Origin: Fimbriimonadaceae bacterium
GTDB taxonomy: Bacteria; Armatimonadota; Fimbriimonadia; Fimbriimonadales; Fimbriimonadaceae
Direction: 5' to 3'
Length of the DNA stretch: 64,000 nt
NCBI GenBank assembly: GCA_026129685.1
Contig: JAHCHO010000006.1
Location: forward strand, 248,001 to 312,000
Shown here: in pieces, positions 13,441-21,847 of the stretch
Numbering within the stretch: position 1 is the stretch's first letter
Layout: every line of letters begins with the position of its first letter
The notes under the pieces: model-generated
Database searches by the model: none
Seen by the model: the letters and a program-made list of their open reading frames with translations, nothing else
What the model was told of the DNA's origin: nothing
Translations under genes and position numbers: made by a program

Positions 13441-14055
13441 TTGTCGAACACGATCTATATCGCTTGTAGCGCACTTCTCGTCTTCGCGGCCTTGGCCGCT
13501 CCTGCTCCCATTGGGTTCTTGGACCGCCTTCGCGCGCGCTTGCGGCGCGGCGCGGAACGCGTCGAGGCCGTCGCCACCCCGCCCCGCATCCTACGGGACA
13601 GCGGTTGGCAAGTGGTTCAGTGCGACGACGTCGCGTCGTTCGAGGACTGGCTCGGGCGAGACGCGGACGGTTTGCCGCCCGGTCCCGGCGAGGAACCATC
13701 TCTTGGCTCGCATCTCCTGATCGAGCTTTTCGGGTGCGACCAGGAGACTCTCGAACTCGAGTCCGGCGTCGCTTCGGCGATGCGTCAGGCAGCGGTGGAC
13801 AGCGAGGCGACGATCGTCGAGCAGTCGTTCCACGAGTTCAAGCCCTATGGCGTTTCCGGGGCGGTGATCATCCAGGAATCCCACTACACGATCCACACCT
13901 GGCCGGAGCACGGCTACGCGGCGGTGGACCTGTTCTACTGCGGCGGAACGGTGAAGGTGCATCGGGCGGTCGAAGCGTTGCGGCGCCGGTTCAACCCGAA
14001 GCGGATCAAGTTCCTGATCGTTCGCCGAGGCATCCGAAGCGAAGTCCTCAAGTAA
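13441..14055 (+). CDS. speD: S-adenosylmethionine decarboxylase proenzyme with N-terminal hydrophobic extension
   Basis: SpeD supplies decarboxylated SAM, the aminopropyl donor for polyamine synthesis. The C-terminal domain (about residues 88-204) is a normal bacterial class 1B enzyme: LGSHLLIELFGCD, then ESHYTIHTWPEHGYAAVDLFYCG. It self-cleaves between Glu146 and Ser147 to make the pyruvoyl group; His152 and Cys167 are present. The family is usually about 125 residues, but this frame adds about 85 residues including a hydrophobic segment (about 5-24). Start TTG 13441 follows a GAGG nine bases upstream. If correct, the enzyme would be membrane-anchored. speE follows 72 nt downstream. Confidence 0.85.
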   Translation: MSNTIYIACSALLVFAALAAPAPIGFLDRLRARLRRGAERVEAVATPPRILRDSGWQVVQCDDVASFEDWLGRDADGLPPGPGEEPSLGSHLLIELFGCDQETLELESGVASAMRQAAVDSEATIVEQSFHEFKPYGVSGAVIIQESHYTIHTWPEHGYAAVDLFYCGGTVKVHRAVEALRRRFNPKRIKFLIVRRGIRSEVLK

Positions 14056-14061
14056 GGTGAG

Positions 14062-14086
14062 CCCGGTCGGCGTCAGTTCGACCGGG
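14062..14086 (+). terminator. hairpin between speD and speE
   Basis: CCCGGTCG (14062-14069) and CGACCGGG (14079-14086) form a perfect eight-base-pair stem with a nine-base loop. Only TTCG follows, so the U-tract is weak. It may attenuate rather than fully stop transcription into speE. Confidence 0.45.
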
Positions 14087-14127
14087 TTCGCTCGTGCCCG
14101 ACCCGTCTCCCGTCCTCCCATTCAACC

Positions 14128-15063
14128 ATGTCACTCATCACCCTCAACACCGGAATGTTCATCGCGGAGACGCACACGGAAGCGGCCGTGTGGCAGTTCA
14201 CCGTCGAAGAAATGCTCGTCGCGGGCAAGACGCAGTACCAGGAGTACCAAATCTGCAACATTCCGCGCTTCGGCAAGACGCTCTTCCTCGACTTCAAGAT
14301 TCAGAGCTCGATCTTAGACGAGTATGTTTTCCACGAGTGCATGGCGCAACCCGCCATGACCCTCCATCCCAACCCGAGGAAGGTCATGGTGGCGGGCGGG
14401 GGCGAGGGTGCGACCTTGCGCGAGGCTTTGCGCCACAACACGGTGGATGAGGCGGTCATGGTGGATATCGACGAGGAACTCGTCGATATGGTGAAGGAGC
14501 ACATGCCCGAATGGCACCAGGGGGCGTTCGACGACCCTCGGACGACCCTCCTCCACACGGACGCCCGAAAGTACCTGCAAGAGAACCGAGGCGCCGGGTT
14601 CGACGTGGTCCTTAGCGACCTTCCCGATCCGCTCGAAGGTGGCCCCGCGATCTACCTCTTCACGAAGGAGTACTTCCAGATCGCCGCCGATGCAATGAGC
14701 GACGATGGGGTGTTCGCGATGCAGGCCGGCTGCGCGAACTGCAACTATCCGTACCTCTTCGCCTCGTGCATGAAGACGCTGCAGGATATGAAGGAGACCT
14801 TCCCTTACGTCGCCGGGTATTTCGGGATCGTGAGCACATTCTTCATGCCCTGGGGCTTCATCGTCGCGAGCAAGAAGGAGAATCCGTTGAACTTGACGGT
14901 CGAGGAGATCGCCCGCCGTCACGCGGCCCGAGGCGTGCAGAACCGTTACTACACCCCGCGCTTCCACCAAGGCGCGTTCACCCTGCCGGAATACCTCTTG
15001 GAGGCGGTCGAAGAGCACGGGCGGGTTCTGACGGACGCAGAACCCTACATCTGGACGGCCTAG
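14128..15063 (+). CDS. speE: spermidine synthase family aminopropyltransferase
   Basis: The 311-aa enzyme transfers the aminopropyl group from decarboxylated SAM to a diamine or polyamine. It has the N-terminal beta domain, the dcSAM-binding motif GGGEGATLREALRH followed by VMVDIDEELVD, and an active-site motif reading LSDLPDPLEGG. Typical spermidine synthases have DSSDP at that position; a DL-DP form is more common in thermospermine-synthase-like and long-chain polyamine enzymes. The product may therefore not be spermidine. No Shine-Dalgarno is evident before the ATG. The place after speD supports the pathway assignment. Confidence 0.88.
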   Translation: MSLITLNTGMFIAETHTEAAVWQFTVEEMLVAGKTQYQEYQICNIPRFGKTLFLDFKIQSSILDEYVFHECMAQPAMTLHPNPRKVMVAGGGEGATLREALRHNTVDEAVMVDIDEELVDMVKEHMPEWHQGAFDDPRTTLLHTDARKYLQENRGAGFDVVLSDLPDPLEGGPAIYLFTKEYFQIAADAMSDDGVFAMQAGCANCNYPYLFASCMKTLQDMKETFPYVAGYFGIVSTFFMPWGFIVASKKENPLNLTVEEIARRHAARGVQNRYYTPRFHQGAFTLPEYLLEAVEEHGRVLTDAEPYIWTA

Positions 15064-15106: not shown

Positions 15107-16789
15107 GTGTTGCAGTGGATTCCGATCTTGGCGCTCGTCGCGATCGGTCCGACGTTGGGAACGACGATGCCTGCGCTCTCCGCTTCCAGTTTCTCGCTTG
15201 TGGCGGTCGATGAACTCGCGCCGCTCTACCCCGACTCGGCGGTCGACTCGGTCGCTCCGTTGACGACGCTTGACGCCGCGCGAGGCACGATCGCAGGCTT
15301 CCACGTCTTGGCGACGGGCCTTGAGCCGGACAAGGCGATCTCGGTTCGAGCGTCGGTCGACGGCCGCCGTCCAGCGGGATTGCGCTTATACCGGCTCATC
15401 GACGTCCCCGTCGAACGTAACACGGGTCTCGGCGAGCGGACCGAAGCGCTGGACGGGCGAACCAACCCGTTCGTCATACGCCGGGCGCCGTTTCGGGTGT
15501 ACGAGGCGCTTCGTCCCTGGGACGGCGATGCGAAGCTCGGGTCCGCAACGGCGGCGTTCCGGGTCGAGTTCGTCGTGGACGTCCGTGCCGCGACGGGACG
15601 GAGAGCCCTGCGGTTCGAGATGAGCCAAGCCGCCGCCAAGCAGAGCGTGAGCGTCGGGATCGAGGTTCATGCGGTGGTCGTACCCAAGGTAGGGCGGGAC
15701 AGCGTTCGCTACACGAACTGGTTCAGCGTGCACAACATCGCCCGGGACCACCGAGTGGCGTTGTGGAGCGAGGGGTTCTGGAAGGTGCTGGACGCCTATG
15801 CGGCGATGATGGCGCGCGGTCGGCAAAACACGTTCTGGTTCGTCTGCGGCGACTTCTTCGAAAGGCGGGGGGACGCGTTCGTGCTCGACGAGACTCGACT
15901 CGACCGATACGTCGCCACGTTCTCGCGGCACGGACTCTGGTGGATCGAAGGGGCGCCGATCGCGGGCCGCAAGGACGGCCAGTGGGAAGCGACGACCTTT
16001 GAGATCGGACTGAACAAAGCCCCGGCGACCTCGCCGCAAGGGGTGGAGACGATCGCTTCGGTGTGCGGCCAGATCCGTCGATTCCTTGCGAAGAAGGGCT
16101 GGCTGGATCGGCTTCTGCAACACGCCGCCGACGAACCGACCACGGTGAACTCGACCGACTATCGCCTCCTTGTCGGACAGATCCGCAAGTACCTCCCGGG
16201 CGTACCGATTCTTGAGGCGACGATGTGCCTTCAGGTCGTGGGTTCGGTGGACGTGTGGTGCCCGCAACTGCAGGAGTTTCAGAAGCACCGTGAGTTCTTC
16301 GAGGTTCAGCGGCGACTTGGCGACCGAGTGATGGTCTACACGTGCCTCGCACCGGGCGGTCCCTGGGTGAACCGGCTGCTGGATCAAGAAAGGCTGCGAC
16401 CGGTGATGCTTGGGTGGGGCATCGCCGCCTTCGGACTGGAGGGGTTCCTGCACTGGGGGCTCAACCATCACGGCGACAGACCATTCGAGCAGAGCGTCGT
16501 GCCGCACCCTGATCAACCGGACAACTACGCCGACAGCCTTCCGGCCGGCGATACGAACGTGCTCTACCCAGGCGCGGACGTCCCATGGAGCGGCACGCGT
16601 TTCGAGGCGCATCGCATCGGGATGGAGGATGTAGAGATGCTAAGGATGCTGGAACGCCACGACCCGGCGGCCTTCCGGGTCGTAACCGGTACCGCGTTCC
16701 GGGGCTTCGACGACTACGAGAAGGACCCGGCTCGCTACCGTCTGGCGAGAAAAGCGCTTCTTATCGCCCTTCGCTCGAAGCCGGGTTAG
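15107..16789 (+). CDS. exported DUF4091 / glycoside hydrolase 123-like protein
   Basis: The 560-aa product has a hydrophobic N-terminus (residues 3-25), a beta-rich N-terminal domain and a C-terminal TIM-barrel-like domain. The end carries the DUF4091 signature: GFLHWGLN, then DTNVLYPG and RFEAHRIGMEDVEMLRMLE. DUF4091 proteins are related to GH123 beta-N-acetylgalactosaminidases and probably act on extracellular glycans. Possible acid residues lie in HAADEPTTVNSTDY. GTG 15107 is the first plausible start and follows a -10-like sequence closely. The last 29 bases overlap the end of the phosphofructokinase gene on the other strand. Confidence 0.75.
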   Translation: MLQWIPILALVAIGPTLGTTMPALSASSFSLVAVDELAPLYPDSAVDSVAPLTTLDAARGTIAGFHVLATGLEPDKAISVRASVDGRRPAGLRLYRLIDVPVERNTGLGERTEALDGRTNPFVIRRAPFRVYEALRPWDGDAKLGSATAAFRVEFVVDVRAATGRRALRFEMSQAAAKQSVSVGIEVHAVVVPKVGRDSVRYTNWFSVHNIARDHRVALWSEGFWKVLDAYAAMMARGRQNTFWFVCGDFFERRGDAFVLDETRLDRYVATFSRHGLWWIEGAPIAGRKDGQWEATTFEIGLNKAPATSPQGVETIASVCGQIRRFLAKKGWLDRLLQHAADEPTTVNSTDYRLLVGQIRKYLPGVPILEATMCLQVVGSVDVWCPQLQEFQKHREFFEVQRRLGDRVMVYTCLAPGGPWVNRLLDQERLRPVMLGWGIAAFGLEGFLHWGLNHHGDRPFEQSVVPHPDQPDNYADSLPAGDTNVLYPGADVPWSGTRFEAHRIGMEDVEMLRMLERHDPAAFRVVTGTAFRGFDDYEKDPARYRLARKALLIALRSKPG

Positions 16790-19007
16790 GTTCGACTCGG
16801 GGTCCGGGCTGGGCAAGCATCGCGGCGGTGGCCCGAAGGTCCATCCACCACTGCTTCTTGGGCCGCTCGTTTTCGACGTCGTACGCGCGCACGATGTCCT
16901 CCAAGGGGCTCACGCGCGACTCGCTTCCGATCTGGCCGACGCAGACGGCTTCGATCTCTCCCTGTAGGGCCAGGTCCTCGAGCGTGGCCATCGCTCGGTA
17001 GACGTAACGGGTGGCCAGGATACGGTCGAACGGCGTCGGGTCGCCACCTTGTTGCAGGTGTCCCAGGACGGACCTTCGCACCTCGTAGAGGTCACCACCC
17101 TCCGCTTCGAGGAGGTCGGCGATGAACTGGGTGGTGTAGATCGGGTGGGCGCGTTCGGAGCGGATCATGACACCGAGACGCTTTCCGCGCGCAAAGCCAT
17201 CGTTGAGCATCGCCACGTCTTGGTGAAGGCCGTCGAGGGTGATGCCTTCCTCGTGAAGGTAGGCCCGCTCCGCCCCCCCGGCGAGCATCGCCATCAAGGC
17301 CAGGTAGCCGCACCGGCGGCCCATGACCTCGACGACAAAGCATCGTCGGGAGGCGACCGCCGACTGCTTGATCTTGTTCAGAGCGTCCACGATGCTGTTG
17401 AGCGCGGTATCGGCCCCGATGCTCACCTCGCTGCCGGGCAGGTTGTTGTTGATCGATGCGGGGACGCAGACGATCGGGATCGCGAAGGCCGGGAAGTTCC
17501 CTCGCTCCCGCACCAGGGTGAGGGCGGCGTCGTAGCCCGACCATCCTCCGACCACGAGCAACCCGTCAAGGGCGCGCTCTTCTAGGGTGCGAGCGATCGC
17601 GTACAGGTCCTTGCCGCTGGGGCGGACGCGGCCGGTGCCGAGTTCGGCACCCCCCAGGGAGGCCCAGTGGTCCACGTCCATCCAAGCGAAGGACCGCATC
17701 CGGTTCTCGATCAGCCCACGGAACCCGCCCTCGATGCCGAGGACGTCGTGACCGTGATCCAGTCCGAGTCGCACGGCGACACGGACGGCGGCGTTCATGC
17801 CGGGGGCGGGCGCGCCCGCGTTCAGGACCCCAATTCGGAGCCGGCGCCGCTCGGGATCGGGCGCGTGAGGCAGCGACCGGACCAAGGTCCTCTGGATGGC
17901 GAAGGACTGGGCGAACCCTCGACCCCGCAAGTCCATCGCACGGGCGAAGTCGCGCTCTTGGATCGCTCGGTTGATGTCTTGGGTGCGCGCGACGCACTCC
18001 ATGAGGGGTCGCCCGATCACGCGGTTGCGGCGCATCCCGATAACCTGGGGGACCGAGTCGGCGGCCGCTCCGAGGAGCTCTTCGACGGCGGCGACGCCGA
18101 CGAGGGTGCTCATCGTGCGATCGTACGCGCTCGGTGCGCCGCCCCGTTGCACGTGGCCGAGGATCGTGAGGCGCACATCCTCACCCAGACGGTCGGCGAG
18201 GACCTGACGGACGTGTTCGGCGCCGATGCGATTGCCGTTCCGGTCGATCGCGCCCTCGGCGACGATAACGATGCTGTCGCGCTTGCCCGCTTTTCGGCCG
18301 GCGCTCAGCACCTCGCACATCTTCCCTTCCCAGTCGTCGACGTCGGGCGGGCTCTCGGGGATGAGGACCCAGTCGGCCCCGGTTGCGAGGGCGCTCATCA
18401 GGGCCAGGTAACCCGAGTTTCGTCCCATCACCTCGACGACGAACGAGCGCTGGTGACTGGCGGCAGTGCTACCGATCGCGTCGATGGCGTCCACGATGCG
18501 GTGGAGGGCGCTGTCGGCGCCGATGGTGATGTCGGTACCCCAGAAGTCGTTATCGATCGAGCCGACGAGACCGACGACGGCGAGGTGGGGGTAGCGGTCG
18601 GCTTCATCGGGTTCGATGCGCCCGGTACCGCGCAGTTCGGCCACAAGTTCGGACCATTCCGCACGGAGGGTGTCGGCGCCGGTCAGACTTCCGTCGCCGC
18701 CGATGACCACCAGGCCATCGATCCCGAACCGGATCAAGTTTTCGACCGCCCGGAGTCGGCCCTCTCGAGTACGAAACTCTTTGCTGCGCGCCGTTCCGAT
18801 GACGGTGCCCCCTCGCTGAAGGATTCCTCCGACGGAGCCCCATTCCATCGGGCGGATGGCCTCACCGCCCTGCACGAGACCCTGGTAGCCCTCCATGATG
18901 GCGAACACGTCGGCACCGTGGTCCAGGCCGGCTCGGACAACGGCCCGGAGCGCCGCATTCATGCCCTGGGCGTCGCCGCCGCTCGTCAAGACTCCAATCC
19001 GTTTCAT
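16761..19007 (-). CDS. tandem (eukaryote-type) ATP-dependent 6-phosphofructokinase
   Basis: The 748-aa protein is two phosphofructokinase halves in one chain, like animal and fungal PFK-1 (about 780 aa). The N-half has GGDGS at 103-107 and SIDND at 150-154 with catalytic Asp152. The C-half (from about residue 390) reads SINNN at 518-522, so the catalytic Asp is Asn520, and GGWSG replaces GGDGS. This matches the eukaryotic pattern of a catalytic N-half and a regulatory C-half. Long stretches resemble muscle PFK, for example GTARSKEFRTREGRLRA, GLVGSIDNDFWGTD and VLGHLQQGGDPTPFDR, and the final KKQWWMDLR. It phosphorylates fructose 6-phosphate. Start is ATG 19007. Confidence 0.92.
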   Translation of the reverse strand: MKRIGVLTSGGDAQGMNAALRAVVRAGLDHGADVFAIMEGYQGLVQGGEAIRPMEWGSVGGILQRGGTVIGTARSKEFRTREGRLRAVENLIRFGIDGLVVIGGDGSLTGADTLRAEWSELVAELRGTGRIEPDEADRYPHLAVVGLVGSIDNDFWGTDITIGADSALHRIVDAIDAIGSTAASHQRSFVVEVMGRNSGYLALMSALATGADWVLIPESPPDVDDWEGKMCEVLSAGRKAGKRDSIVIVAEGAIDRNGNRIGAEHVRQVLADRLGEDVRLTILGHVQRGGAPSAYDRTMSTLVGVAAVEELLGAAADSVPQVIGMRRNRVIGRPLMECVARTQDINRAIQERDFARAMDLRGRGFAQSFAIQRTLVRSLPHAPDPERRRLRIGVLNAGAPAPGMNAAVRVAVRLGLDHGHDVLGIEGGFRGLIENRMRSFAWMDVDHWASLGGAELGTGRVRPSGKDLYAIARTLEERALDGLLVVGGWSGYDAALTLVRERGNFPAFAIPIVCVPASINNNLPGSEVSIGADTALNSIVDALNKIKQSAVASRRCFVVEVMGRRCGYLALMAMLAGGAERAYLHEEGITLDGLHQDVAMLNDGFARGKRLGVMIRSERAHPIYTTQFIADLLEAEGGDLYEVRRSVLGHLQQGGDPTPFDRILATRYVYRAMATLEDLALQGEIEAVCVGQIGSESRVSPLEDIVRAYDVENERPKKQWWMDLRATAAMLAQPGPRVEPNPASSEGR

Positions 19008-19071
19008 AGGCTTGAACCAGGATGGGTCCGACCGCGAAGCCGGACCCACTCGATTGTCGGTCGTTCTGGGC

Positions 19072-20484
19072 TCAGTCGCTCAGGCCAAGGTCGTCGCCGA
19101 CTTCCCTACCCGACTTGGGCTTGGGCCGGTGGCACTCGACAACGGTGACGATCGAGTCGATCAGCGATCGGGTGTCCACCACGTTGAGTTGGCGGAAGAA
19201 GAAGGCGAACTTCTCCTCCAGGGCGCCGTAGAGGGCCTCTCTTACCTCGCAAGGCAGACCCCACATCTCGGGCTTGAACGGACCGATGGCCTTCTTGCGC
19301 GTCTTGTAGTAGAACTGCGCGTCGGTCATGTTTGGCTTGCGCTCGTCCTGCGCCGAGGCGTCGAGGAACTTGTGGATGGTGTCCTTGAGCCTTGCCGGGA
19401 ACTTGGGCGCGTCGAGGAACATGTTCATGAAGCCGGTCGCGAGGTGAATTTCGAGGGTCTGGATCGCCGGGAACCGGTGGAACATCTCCTCGGGCAGGGT
19501 GCTCGCCCCGTGCTGGACGGCGCCGCCCGCCCCGTACCGCCAGGCCTCGCGGCCAAGCACTTCGAGGGTGTCGAAATCGACGGCGACCTCCTTGATGGAT
19601 CCGTCGGGCAAGACCACGCCGCCGTGGCTCGTCCCGGTCTGGACACTGATCTTGCTTAGGCCGACAAAGTCGCCAAGGGCGCGCAGCGTTTCGACGTACC
19701 CATCCATGTAGGCTCTGAGCTCTTCGGGGGTGGAGTTCTTCTCGCCCACCTCGCCGATCTCTCCACCCAGACTCACGGTGACGCCCCTCGGCTCAAGGTC
19801 TCGAACGTGCTTCGTCAACTCCGCCGATCGGTGGTAGTTGTGGAACTGCTGCTCCTTGAGGGTTGGTGGATCCAACGTCACAAGGGTACTGGTATCGATG
19901 TCGATGTTCCAGAAGCCCGCGGGAATCGCCTGGGTGATCAGGTCCTTGACCTCTTGGATCGCGCCCTCGGGGTCCGTCTTGTACTTGGACGCCTTCACCT
20001 GGAAGTGGTCGCCCTGAATGAAAAGCGGATGGAAGTAGCCTTCCTTGATCGCCGCCGCGATCACCATCGCGCTGTACTCCACGGGCGGCTGTTCGGTGTA
20101 GCTCATTTCGCTACGGGCCAGTTCGAACACGATCGCACCCGCGTTCGTCTTCTTCGCGGCTCGAAAGGCCGCGCGGCATGTGTCGTAGGTCGTGAAGCGA
20201 ATGTTCATCGCGGGCACGGTCCGGTCGGACCATAGCCCTTTCGCGCGTCCGACGTAGAACTCGTGGATGCTCGCCGGTCGAGCCCCCAAAACCTGGCCCA
20301 GCTCCCATATCATCCAACGCGCGTAGTCCTTGACCGATTCGGTCCCAAAGGCGGCCGTGCGCGCCAGTCGGTCGATGCCGCTTCCCTGCAGCTTATCCAG
20401 ATCGATCACGGTCACCGTGTCACCGGAGACCGTCGCGGCGGACTTTAGGTCCTGCCGCAACTCATAGATTGACTCGTAGATCAT
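19072..20484 (-). CDS. class II fructose-bisphosphate aldolase-like protein
   Basis: The 470-aa protein resembles class II aldolases: [29 protein letters not shown] (candidate metal-binding His), [15 protein letters not shown] and [15 protein letters not shown]. It is longer than the usual 300-360 residues, with extra N- and C-terminal helices. Between two phosphofructokinase genes on the same strand, cleavage of fructose 1,6-bisphosphate is the natural role, although tagatose-bisphosphate aldolases look similar. AAGGA lies ten bases before the ATG. It probably shares a transcript with both neighbours (83 nt upstream, 64 nt downstream). Confidence 0.75.
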
Positions 20485-20520
20485 TGGTTGTTCGTCCTTG
20501 GTAACGACGAGACGGGTACG

Positions 20521-20552
20521 GGGCGAGGGTCGCTCGGTGCGAGCCCTCGCCC
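20521..20552 (-). terminator. GC-rich hairpin between pfp and the aldolase gene
   Basis: GGGCGAGGGTCGC and GCGAGCCCTCGCCC pair over 13 base pairs with one bulged base and a small loop. In the direction of these genes no U-tract follows. It may be a partial terminator or an mRNA-stability element inside the glycolytic operon. Confidence 0.4.
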
Positions 20553-20567
20553 GCTTTTCGAGGTAGC

Positions 20568-21728
20568 TCAGTACAGGAACATCGGTTTGCCAAGCACATG
20601 CCGCACTTTCGGCCGATACTCGTTGACGTCGTAGAGTTCTCCAACGTCCACACGCTTGAGCCCGCTGGTCACCGTGCTCATGGCGATGTGGGTGTAGGAT
20701 CCATCGCGCAGGGCGACCATTCGCCCGCTCACGCCGCTCGTCATTAGGGAAACGGCGAGGTTCGCGTAGTTGACGCCGACCATCAGGTCGAGAGCGTCGG
20801 GGGCACCCGAGCGCATGAGGTAGCTGACCTGCTGGTAGATGATATGCTCACCCGTGAGTTTCTTCAGCGCCTCGCCGGTCAGTTCGCCGATACCTCCGAG
20901 CTTCTTGTGTCCGTACGCGTCTGCCTCTCCGTATTCCACGACCTGGCCGCCCTGAAAGTGCGCGCCCTCGCTGATCGTTACCATCGCATAGTTGCTCGGA
21001 TTGTCCTTCTTGTCGCGCATCACCAGGTCGGCCAGTTTCTCAACGTCGAAAGGCACCTCTGAGATGAGCGCGCGGTCCACGCTCGCGAGATATGAACTGA
21101 TGAGGCTGGTCTCTCCGCTGTTGCGTCCGAACAGCTCGATGACGGCGATGCGCTCGTGCGAGCCCGTACTCGTGCGGAGTTGGTGGATGAACTGAACGCT
21201 ACGCGTGACGGCGGTGCCGAACCCAATACAGTAGTCGGTACCGTACACGTCGTTGTCCATGGTCTTAGGAATCGCGACGACCGGAAAGTTCTCACGGTGC
21301 AGTCGCTCTCCGAAACTCAGGGTGTCGTCGCCGCCGATCGGGATCAGACGATCGATGCCCAACCACTCGAGATTCTTAAGGACGTGGGGGGTGAAGTCGA
21401 GGATGGAGTTCGGGTCCGGAGCCGGGGCGTTCGGATCCATCAGGAACACAGGAGCGTCCTTGGGCCGGACCTTCTGGGGGTTGGTGCGGCTCGTGTGAAG
21501 GAAGGTGCCACCGGTACGGTCGATGGTCCGGACCTTTCCCTTGTCAAGGGGAATGAAGCACGCGTCGTGGGTGTCGGGATCGTCAGGGTTAAGGTGGAGA
21601 AGGCCCCACCATCCCCGGCGGATTCCGACCACCTCGTGTCCCTCTTCGACCGCGCGATCGACGACCGCTTTGATGCAAGGGTTGAGTCCTGGGACGTCAC
21701 CGCCACCTGTCAATACGCCAATTCTCAT
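20568..21728 (-). CDS. phosphofructokinase, probably pyrophosphate-dependent
   Basis: The 386-aa enzyme belongs to the PfkA superfamily. It carries GGDDT at 132-136 and PKTMDND at 154-160. Asp in place of the second Gly of GGDGS and Lys in PKTMDND are the established signature of PPi-dependent phosphofructokinases, which run reversibly. The catalytic Asp is Asp158. Start is ATG 21728, directly before [10 protein letters not shown]; the frame is open further upstream. It heads a minus-strand cluster with an aldolase-like gene and the tandem ATP-type phosphofructokinase, giving one operon with both enzyme types. Confidence 0.88.
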
Positions 21729-21847
21729 GCTGTTCTCCGTCGGCTCGAAGCGCGCGACCGCAACGGGGCCCATTGGCCGGGCTTCGGCGTTCCTTCGGAT
21801 CGCGTCGACCGCCTGCCCCGATTCCACCGGTAGCCGACTCCGAGGTC

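Follow-up and report, generated by a model that had tools for sequence, protein, structure and literature searches.

How does a bacterium come to encode the double-length form of phosphofructokinase (PFK), the control enzyme of sugar breakdown, when that form is known from animals and fungi? The window analyzed here, i.e., the whole stretch of 64,000 nucleotides from a Fimbriimonadaceae bacterium (contig JAHCHO010000006.1, positions 248,001 to 312,000), carries such a gene at the coordinates given by an earlier note made from the sequence alone. The open reading frame (ORF) starts with an ATG at 19007, its stop codon ends at 16761, and the 748 aa are encoded on the minus strand, which the note had not specified. 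The explanation favored here, held at a probability of roughly 0.8, is that the N-terminal half (N-half) would be an ATP-dependent PFK and the C-terminal half (C-half) an effector site for fructose 1,6-bisphosphate (FBP) or fructose 6-phosphate (F6P), that the two were fused once, and that the gene came from a Chloroflexota-like donor. The architecture, the residue pattern, the single fusion, and the cassette with its spread are computed. The features of the gene are the following:

16761..19007, minus strand: tandem ATP-type 6-phosphofructokinase (P0001), recognized by TIGR02478, two Pfam PFK domains, PFK-1 structures in the PDB, and an AlphaFold2 (AF2) model
17847..19007, minus strand: N-half (aa 1-387), putatively catalytic, with catalytic and F6P residues retained
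16761..17846, minus strand: C-half (aa 388-748), predicted regulatory, with the Mg-ATP motif lost and the pocket kept

As the earlier note had maintained, two PFK domains reside on one chain: Pfam detects both within the 748 aa, and the model TIGR02478 (6PF1K_euk) aligns with residues 2-733 at a score of 966 bits, far above its cut-off of 708. The nearest PDB structures are rabbit and human PFK-1, which align end to end (E about 1e-219); identity amounts to 49% to rabbit and 45% to yeast PFK. An AF2 model built from 27 sequences (pLDDT 89, pTM 0.90) superposes 728 residues on human liver PFK-1 (PFKL, 8w2g) with a TM of 0.95 and a Z of 48. The motifs named in the note (GGDGS at 103-107, Asp152 within SIDND, Asn520, and PKKQWW near 716-722) are all found, and QWW-type C-termini occur in rabbit and in 52/70 bacterial tandem PFKs; the yeast sequences used end before the C-terminus. 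Judged by all features testable in sequence and model, the window protein is a PFK-1-type member. It has in common with animal and fungal PFK-1 (human PFKL/M/P, yeast Pfk1/Pfk2) the order of the halves, an active-type N-half, the fusion itself, an ATP-dead C-half with a sugar-phosphate pocket, and a fold matching at a TM of about 0.95. Yeast PFK bears an N-terminal glyoxalase-like extension, which the bacterial tandem protein lacks.

The tandem form is not unique to the window; it is present in dozens of bacterial genomes. A survey of three bacterial phyla (291 genomes of Armatimonadota, 350 of Chloroflexota, and 396 of Actinomycetota) detected it in 37 of the Chloroflexota (Anaerolineae, Caldilineae) and 25 of the Actinomycetota genomes sampled (Mycolicibacterium and others), in the same form and mostly 54-64% identical to the window protein. 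Among the Armatimonadota, two of the 291 genomes exceed the family cut-off, both belonging to the window's genus. A short contig of a third congener encodes a C-terminal fragment, and the database record of one congener names it Chthonomonas sp. (Armatimonadota). Nearly all other Armatimonadota possess the bacterial PfkA form, a single-domain protein of about 320 aa with an ADP/PEP effector site. PfkA, as exemplified by the E. coli and G. stearothermophilus enzymes, is homologous to each half of the tandem protein, and its catalytic residues are kept in the N-half. The sister genera encode an ordinary single-domain PfkA that is missing from the window genome, where the only PF00365 genes are the tandem PFK and a PPi-type neighbor, with no other ATP-type PFK-A. 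A search of 72,556 plasmid records with an E threshold of 1e-100 gave no match to the tandem PFK, and thus no sign of plasmid carriage.

The two halves differ markedly in what they have conserved. The N-half of the window protein carries the ATP-type catalytic signature (GGDG, IDND), with GGDGS at 103-107, Asp152, Asp154, Arg187, Glu251, Arg279, His285, and Arg288 as key residues. The ATP, F6P, and catalytic residues of this half are intact in 70/70 bacterial tandem PFKs and are also kept in eukaryotes. The N-half would catalyze the conversion of F6P and ATP to FBP and ADP, and its residues point to an ATP-dependent PFK activity of the whole protein. The C-half of the window protein has GGWSG (487-491) at the position of the Mg-ATP motif and Asn520 in place of the catalytic aspartate. 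GGDGS is gone from the C-half of every bacterial tandem PFK, the equivalent of Asp103 being W, F, L, E, or S, and the equivalent of Arg77 is deleted in 68/69. The reading of the C-half as ATP-dead, in line with the dead C-half site of the earlier note, is borne out by the absence of the Mg-ATP motif from all bacterial C-halves surveyed. A correction is needed for Asn520, which had been listed as a PFK-1-like feature, because animals and fungi carry serine there. The bacterial tandem PFKs differ from them in having asparagine (46/70) or aspartate (19/70) at this position, with serine in three and threonine in two, and the residue has changed at least 14 times along the tandem PFK tree. Two of three Chloroflexota genomes with two different tandem PFK genes each, G294 (L015, L079) and G302 (L023, L080), have aspartate in one paralogue and asparagine in the other; the third is G296 (L017, L078). 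A highly divergent tandem PFK (L082 in G490; 48% identity to the window protein) sits on a long branch, bears threonine in the C-half and one reported in-frame TAG, and may be decaying or fast-evolving.

The sugar-phosphate pocket of the C-half has followed a different course. In the window protein it comprises Arg555, Met562, Gly563, Glu618, Arg644, and His650, and Gln653 replaces Arg252 of the E. coli enzyme. The equivalents of Arg162, Met169, Gly170, Glu222, and Arg243 are retained in 69/69 bacterial tandem PFKs and that of His249 in 68/69, while the Arg252 equivalent is glutamine in 58/69 of them and in 5/5 eukaryotes. Conservation reaches at least 98.5% in each of the six pocket columns, a level attained by 19% of C-half columns overall (binomial p 5e-5). 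At the citrate site, Lys547 (rabbit Lys557) is lysine in 66/70 bacterial tandem PFKs; rabbit Lys617 corresponds to Ala606 in the window protein. The C-half would be a degenerate copy in which Mg-ATP binding has been lost and the retained sugar-phosphate pocket serves as an allosteric site. The simplest reading of these residue patterns is that the ATP site would have been lost first, and once, and the catalytic base later and repeatedly, with the effector pocket retained throughout. An alternative is that the C-half constitutes a second active catalytic site or a structural spacer devoid of any effector role. The aspartate in 19/70 C-halves speaks in its favor and makes some residual function possible in those proteins despite the missing Mg-ATP motif; in addition, no ligand is known for a bacterial C-half. 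Since the motif is missing from every bacterial C-half and the near-invariance of the pocket residues goes beyond the needs of a spacer, this alternative is regarded as rather unlikely. The pocket could instead be conserved for folding or tetramer contacts.

If the C-half is an effector site, the nature of its ligand has to be considered. The same pocket takes fructose 2,6-bisphosphate in human PFK-1, and FBP sits in it in a human PFKP structure (PMC12203962). A search for 6-phosphofructo-2-kinase (6PF2K) with one Pfam model found none over the cut-off in 77 bacterial genomes with a tandem PFK, some of them incomplete MAGs, a difference from animals and fungi that has to be read with the fact that the genomes used as controls contained no true 6PF2K and hence provided no positive control. 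By this search, tandem-PFK bacteria seem to be devoid of a known fructose 2,6-bisphosphate synthase, which makes FBP or F6P a better guess than fructose 2,6-bisphosphate. The bacterial pocket would accordingly bind FBP, resulting in product activation, or F6P. It is conceivable that the pocket already binds fructose 2,6-bisphosphate made by an unrelated 2-kinase of a new kind, and the agreement of the pocket residues with those of PFK-1 is compatible with this idea; given that 6PF2K was found in 0/77 genomes, it is considered very improbable. Most likely, the C-half would be a sugar-phosphate effector site supplied by something other than a known fructose 2,6-bisphosphate synthase, with both ligand and activation predicted from the residues of the pocket.

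The relationship to animal and fungal PFK-1 was addressed by a tree of the N- and C-halves of 24 bacterial and five eukaryotic tandem PFKs together with 10 single PFKs. The eukaryotes were represented by animal and yeast sequences only, and long branches are present. The N-halves of bacteria and eukaryotes form one clade (support 100/98) and their C-halves another (100/100); a quicker version of the tree gave the same grouping. Fused repeats are frequent among proteins and PFK functions as an oligomer, so that repeated fusion is conceivable, in which case two PFK copies would have been joined in bacteria separately from eukaryotes, and the resemblance to PFK-1 would be convergent. This independent bacterial duplication is rejected by the AU test, forcing the bacterial halves together at a cost of 199 log-likelihood units (p-AU about 2e-62), and an independent eukaryotic duplication costs 190 units (p-AU 3e-102). 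Lopsided C-half changes common to both groups (loss of Asp103, mostly Arg252 to Gln, and Arg154 to Lys) also argue against convergence, as does the Arg54 to Trp change, which all eukaryotes show in both halves and bacteria in 69/69 C-halves and 50/69 N-halves. Convergence is the least probable of all readings considered here. The earlier note had suggested a phylogeny of both halves and had named a bacterial duplication unrelated to PFK-1 as the opposing case; what emerged is a shared N clade and a shared C clade, in keeping with its claim of half-by-half homology to animal and fungal PFK-1. Because the half trees unite the N-halves and unite the C-halves, and independent duplications are rejected, bacterial and opisthokont tandem PFKs go back to a single common fusion. 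Fusion and division of labor between the halves would have arisen once, before the bacterial and opisthokont forms separated.

The direction of descent is less clear-cut. In both halves the eukaryotic tandem PFKs hold together as a single group. The eukaryotic C-halves nest within the bacterial ones, with monophyly of the bacterial C-halves not rejected (p-AU 0.37), and the N-halves group the bacteria together weakly (71/87). A recent transfer of animal or fungal PFK-1 into bacteria, or eukaryotic contamination, would account for the end-to-end similarity to PFK-1. Trees and identities oppose it: Animals and fungi cluster apart from all bacterial tandem PFKs in both halves, and the window protein is 71% identical to that of a congener and 64% to that of Chloroflexota, but only 49% to that of rabbit. 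Moreover, the ORF is uninterrupted and has bacterial genes as neighbors, and the 3.9-Mb genome is 99% complete. Such a recent event has very little chance of being correct; an older transfer into bacteria from an unsampled protist lineage may have occurred. At somewhat short of even odds, the regulatory architecture of animal and fungal PFK-1 would be a bacterial invention, in which a fused protein lost the ATP site of its C-half and turned the remaining pocket into a sensor of FBP or F6P; opisthokonts would then have acquired the gene and later added fructose 2,6-bisphosphate as its ligand.

A 2025 review of the superfamily still treats tandem fusion as characteristic of the eukaryotic enzymes (PMC12203962), and both it and a 2024 PFK-A tree give the fused form for eukaryotes only. 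No description of a bacterial tandem PFK was found in the open-access library searched; mention in subscription journals is possible. The NCBI model TIGR02478 covers such proteins, and the sequences are therefore already in databases. What is little described is their occurrence in bacteria, the fusion common with eukaryotes, and the lack of a known fructose 2,6-bisphosphate synthase. The bacterial clade would represent living intermediates, featuring the fusion and an effector pocket, no known effector synthase, and in some members an aspartate in the C-half. With such intermediates at hand, in vitro tests could address how glycolysis came by its best-known allosteric switch.

How the gene reached the window's genus is best considered together with two genes upstream of it on the same strand, all three making up one run with gaps of 64 bp (tandem PFK to aldolase-like gene) and 83 bp:

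19072..20484, minus strand: aldolase-like protein of 470 aa (class II FBP aldolase / GatZ-like superfamily; Pfam F_bP_aldolase 2.7e-11)
20568..21827, minus strand: single-domain PFK belonging to the "mixed" group and bearing GGDD and PKTMDND as PPi-type signatures, assigned by profile matches and by a tree with Chloroflexota neighbors

GGDD and PKTMDND are signatures of PPi-type PFKs (PMC12203962). The PPi-type ORF comprises 419 aa from a GTG, with later ATGs inside, and its product clusters with the neighbors of Chloroflexota tandem PFKs, away from most homologues of its own family. The aldolase-like gene has homologues 67-70% identical beside the tandem PFK in Chloroflexota (L014, L016, L027) and was found in 0/60 relatives, congeners included. 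In trees, the window tandem PFK joins that of the congener and then an Anaerolineales sequence. Several Chloroflexota tandem PFKs have the same PPi-type and aldolase-like neighbors, in a gene order that differs from that of the window: PPi type, aldolase, tandem in the window, as opposed to tandem, PPi type, aldolase in L014 and L027. The order at 16761-21827 is a cyclic permutation of those at L027:5977-11168 and L014:5884-10959. In the congener G002/L012, the PPi-type PFK is followed by the tandem gene, and the aldolase was not found. Transfer of a three-gene cassette from a Chloroflexota-like donor fits best, and the window lineage would have taken up tandem PFK, PPi-type PFK, and aldolase together. 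Of the transfers that the earlier note could have had in mind, trees and cassette thus favor one from a Chloroflexota-like bacterium into this genus of Armatimonadota, not one from a eukaryote into this bacterium. Within the ATP-type and PPi-type pair, one enzyme might provide a controlled forward step and the other a reversible one. On the plus strand, a gene with a glycoside hydrolase 123 family catalytic domain (15107-16789) runs convergently and overlaps the end of the tandem PFK by 29 bases, and at 13441-15063 adjacent S-adenosylmethionine decarboxylase and spermidine synthase genes constitute a polyamine pair.
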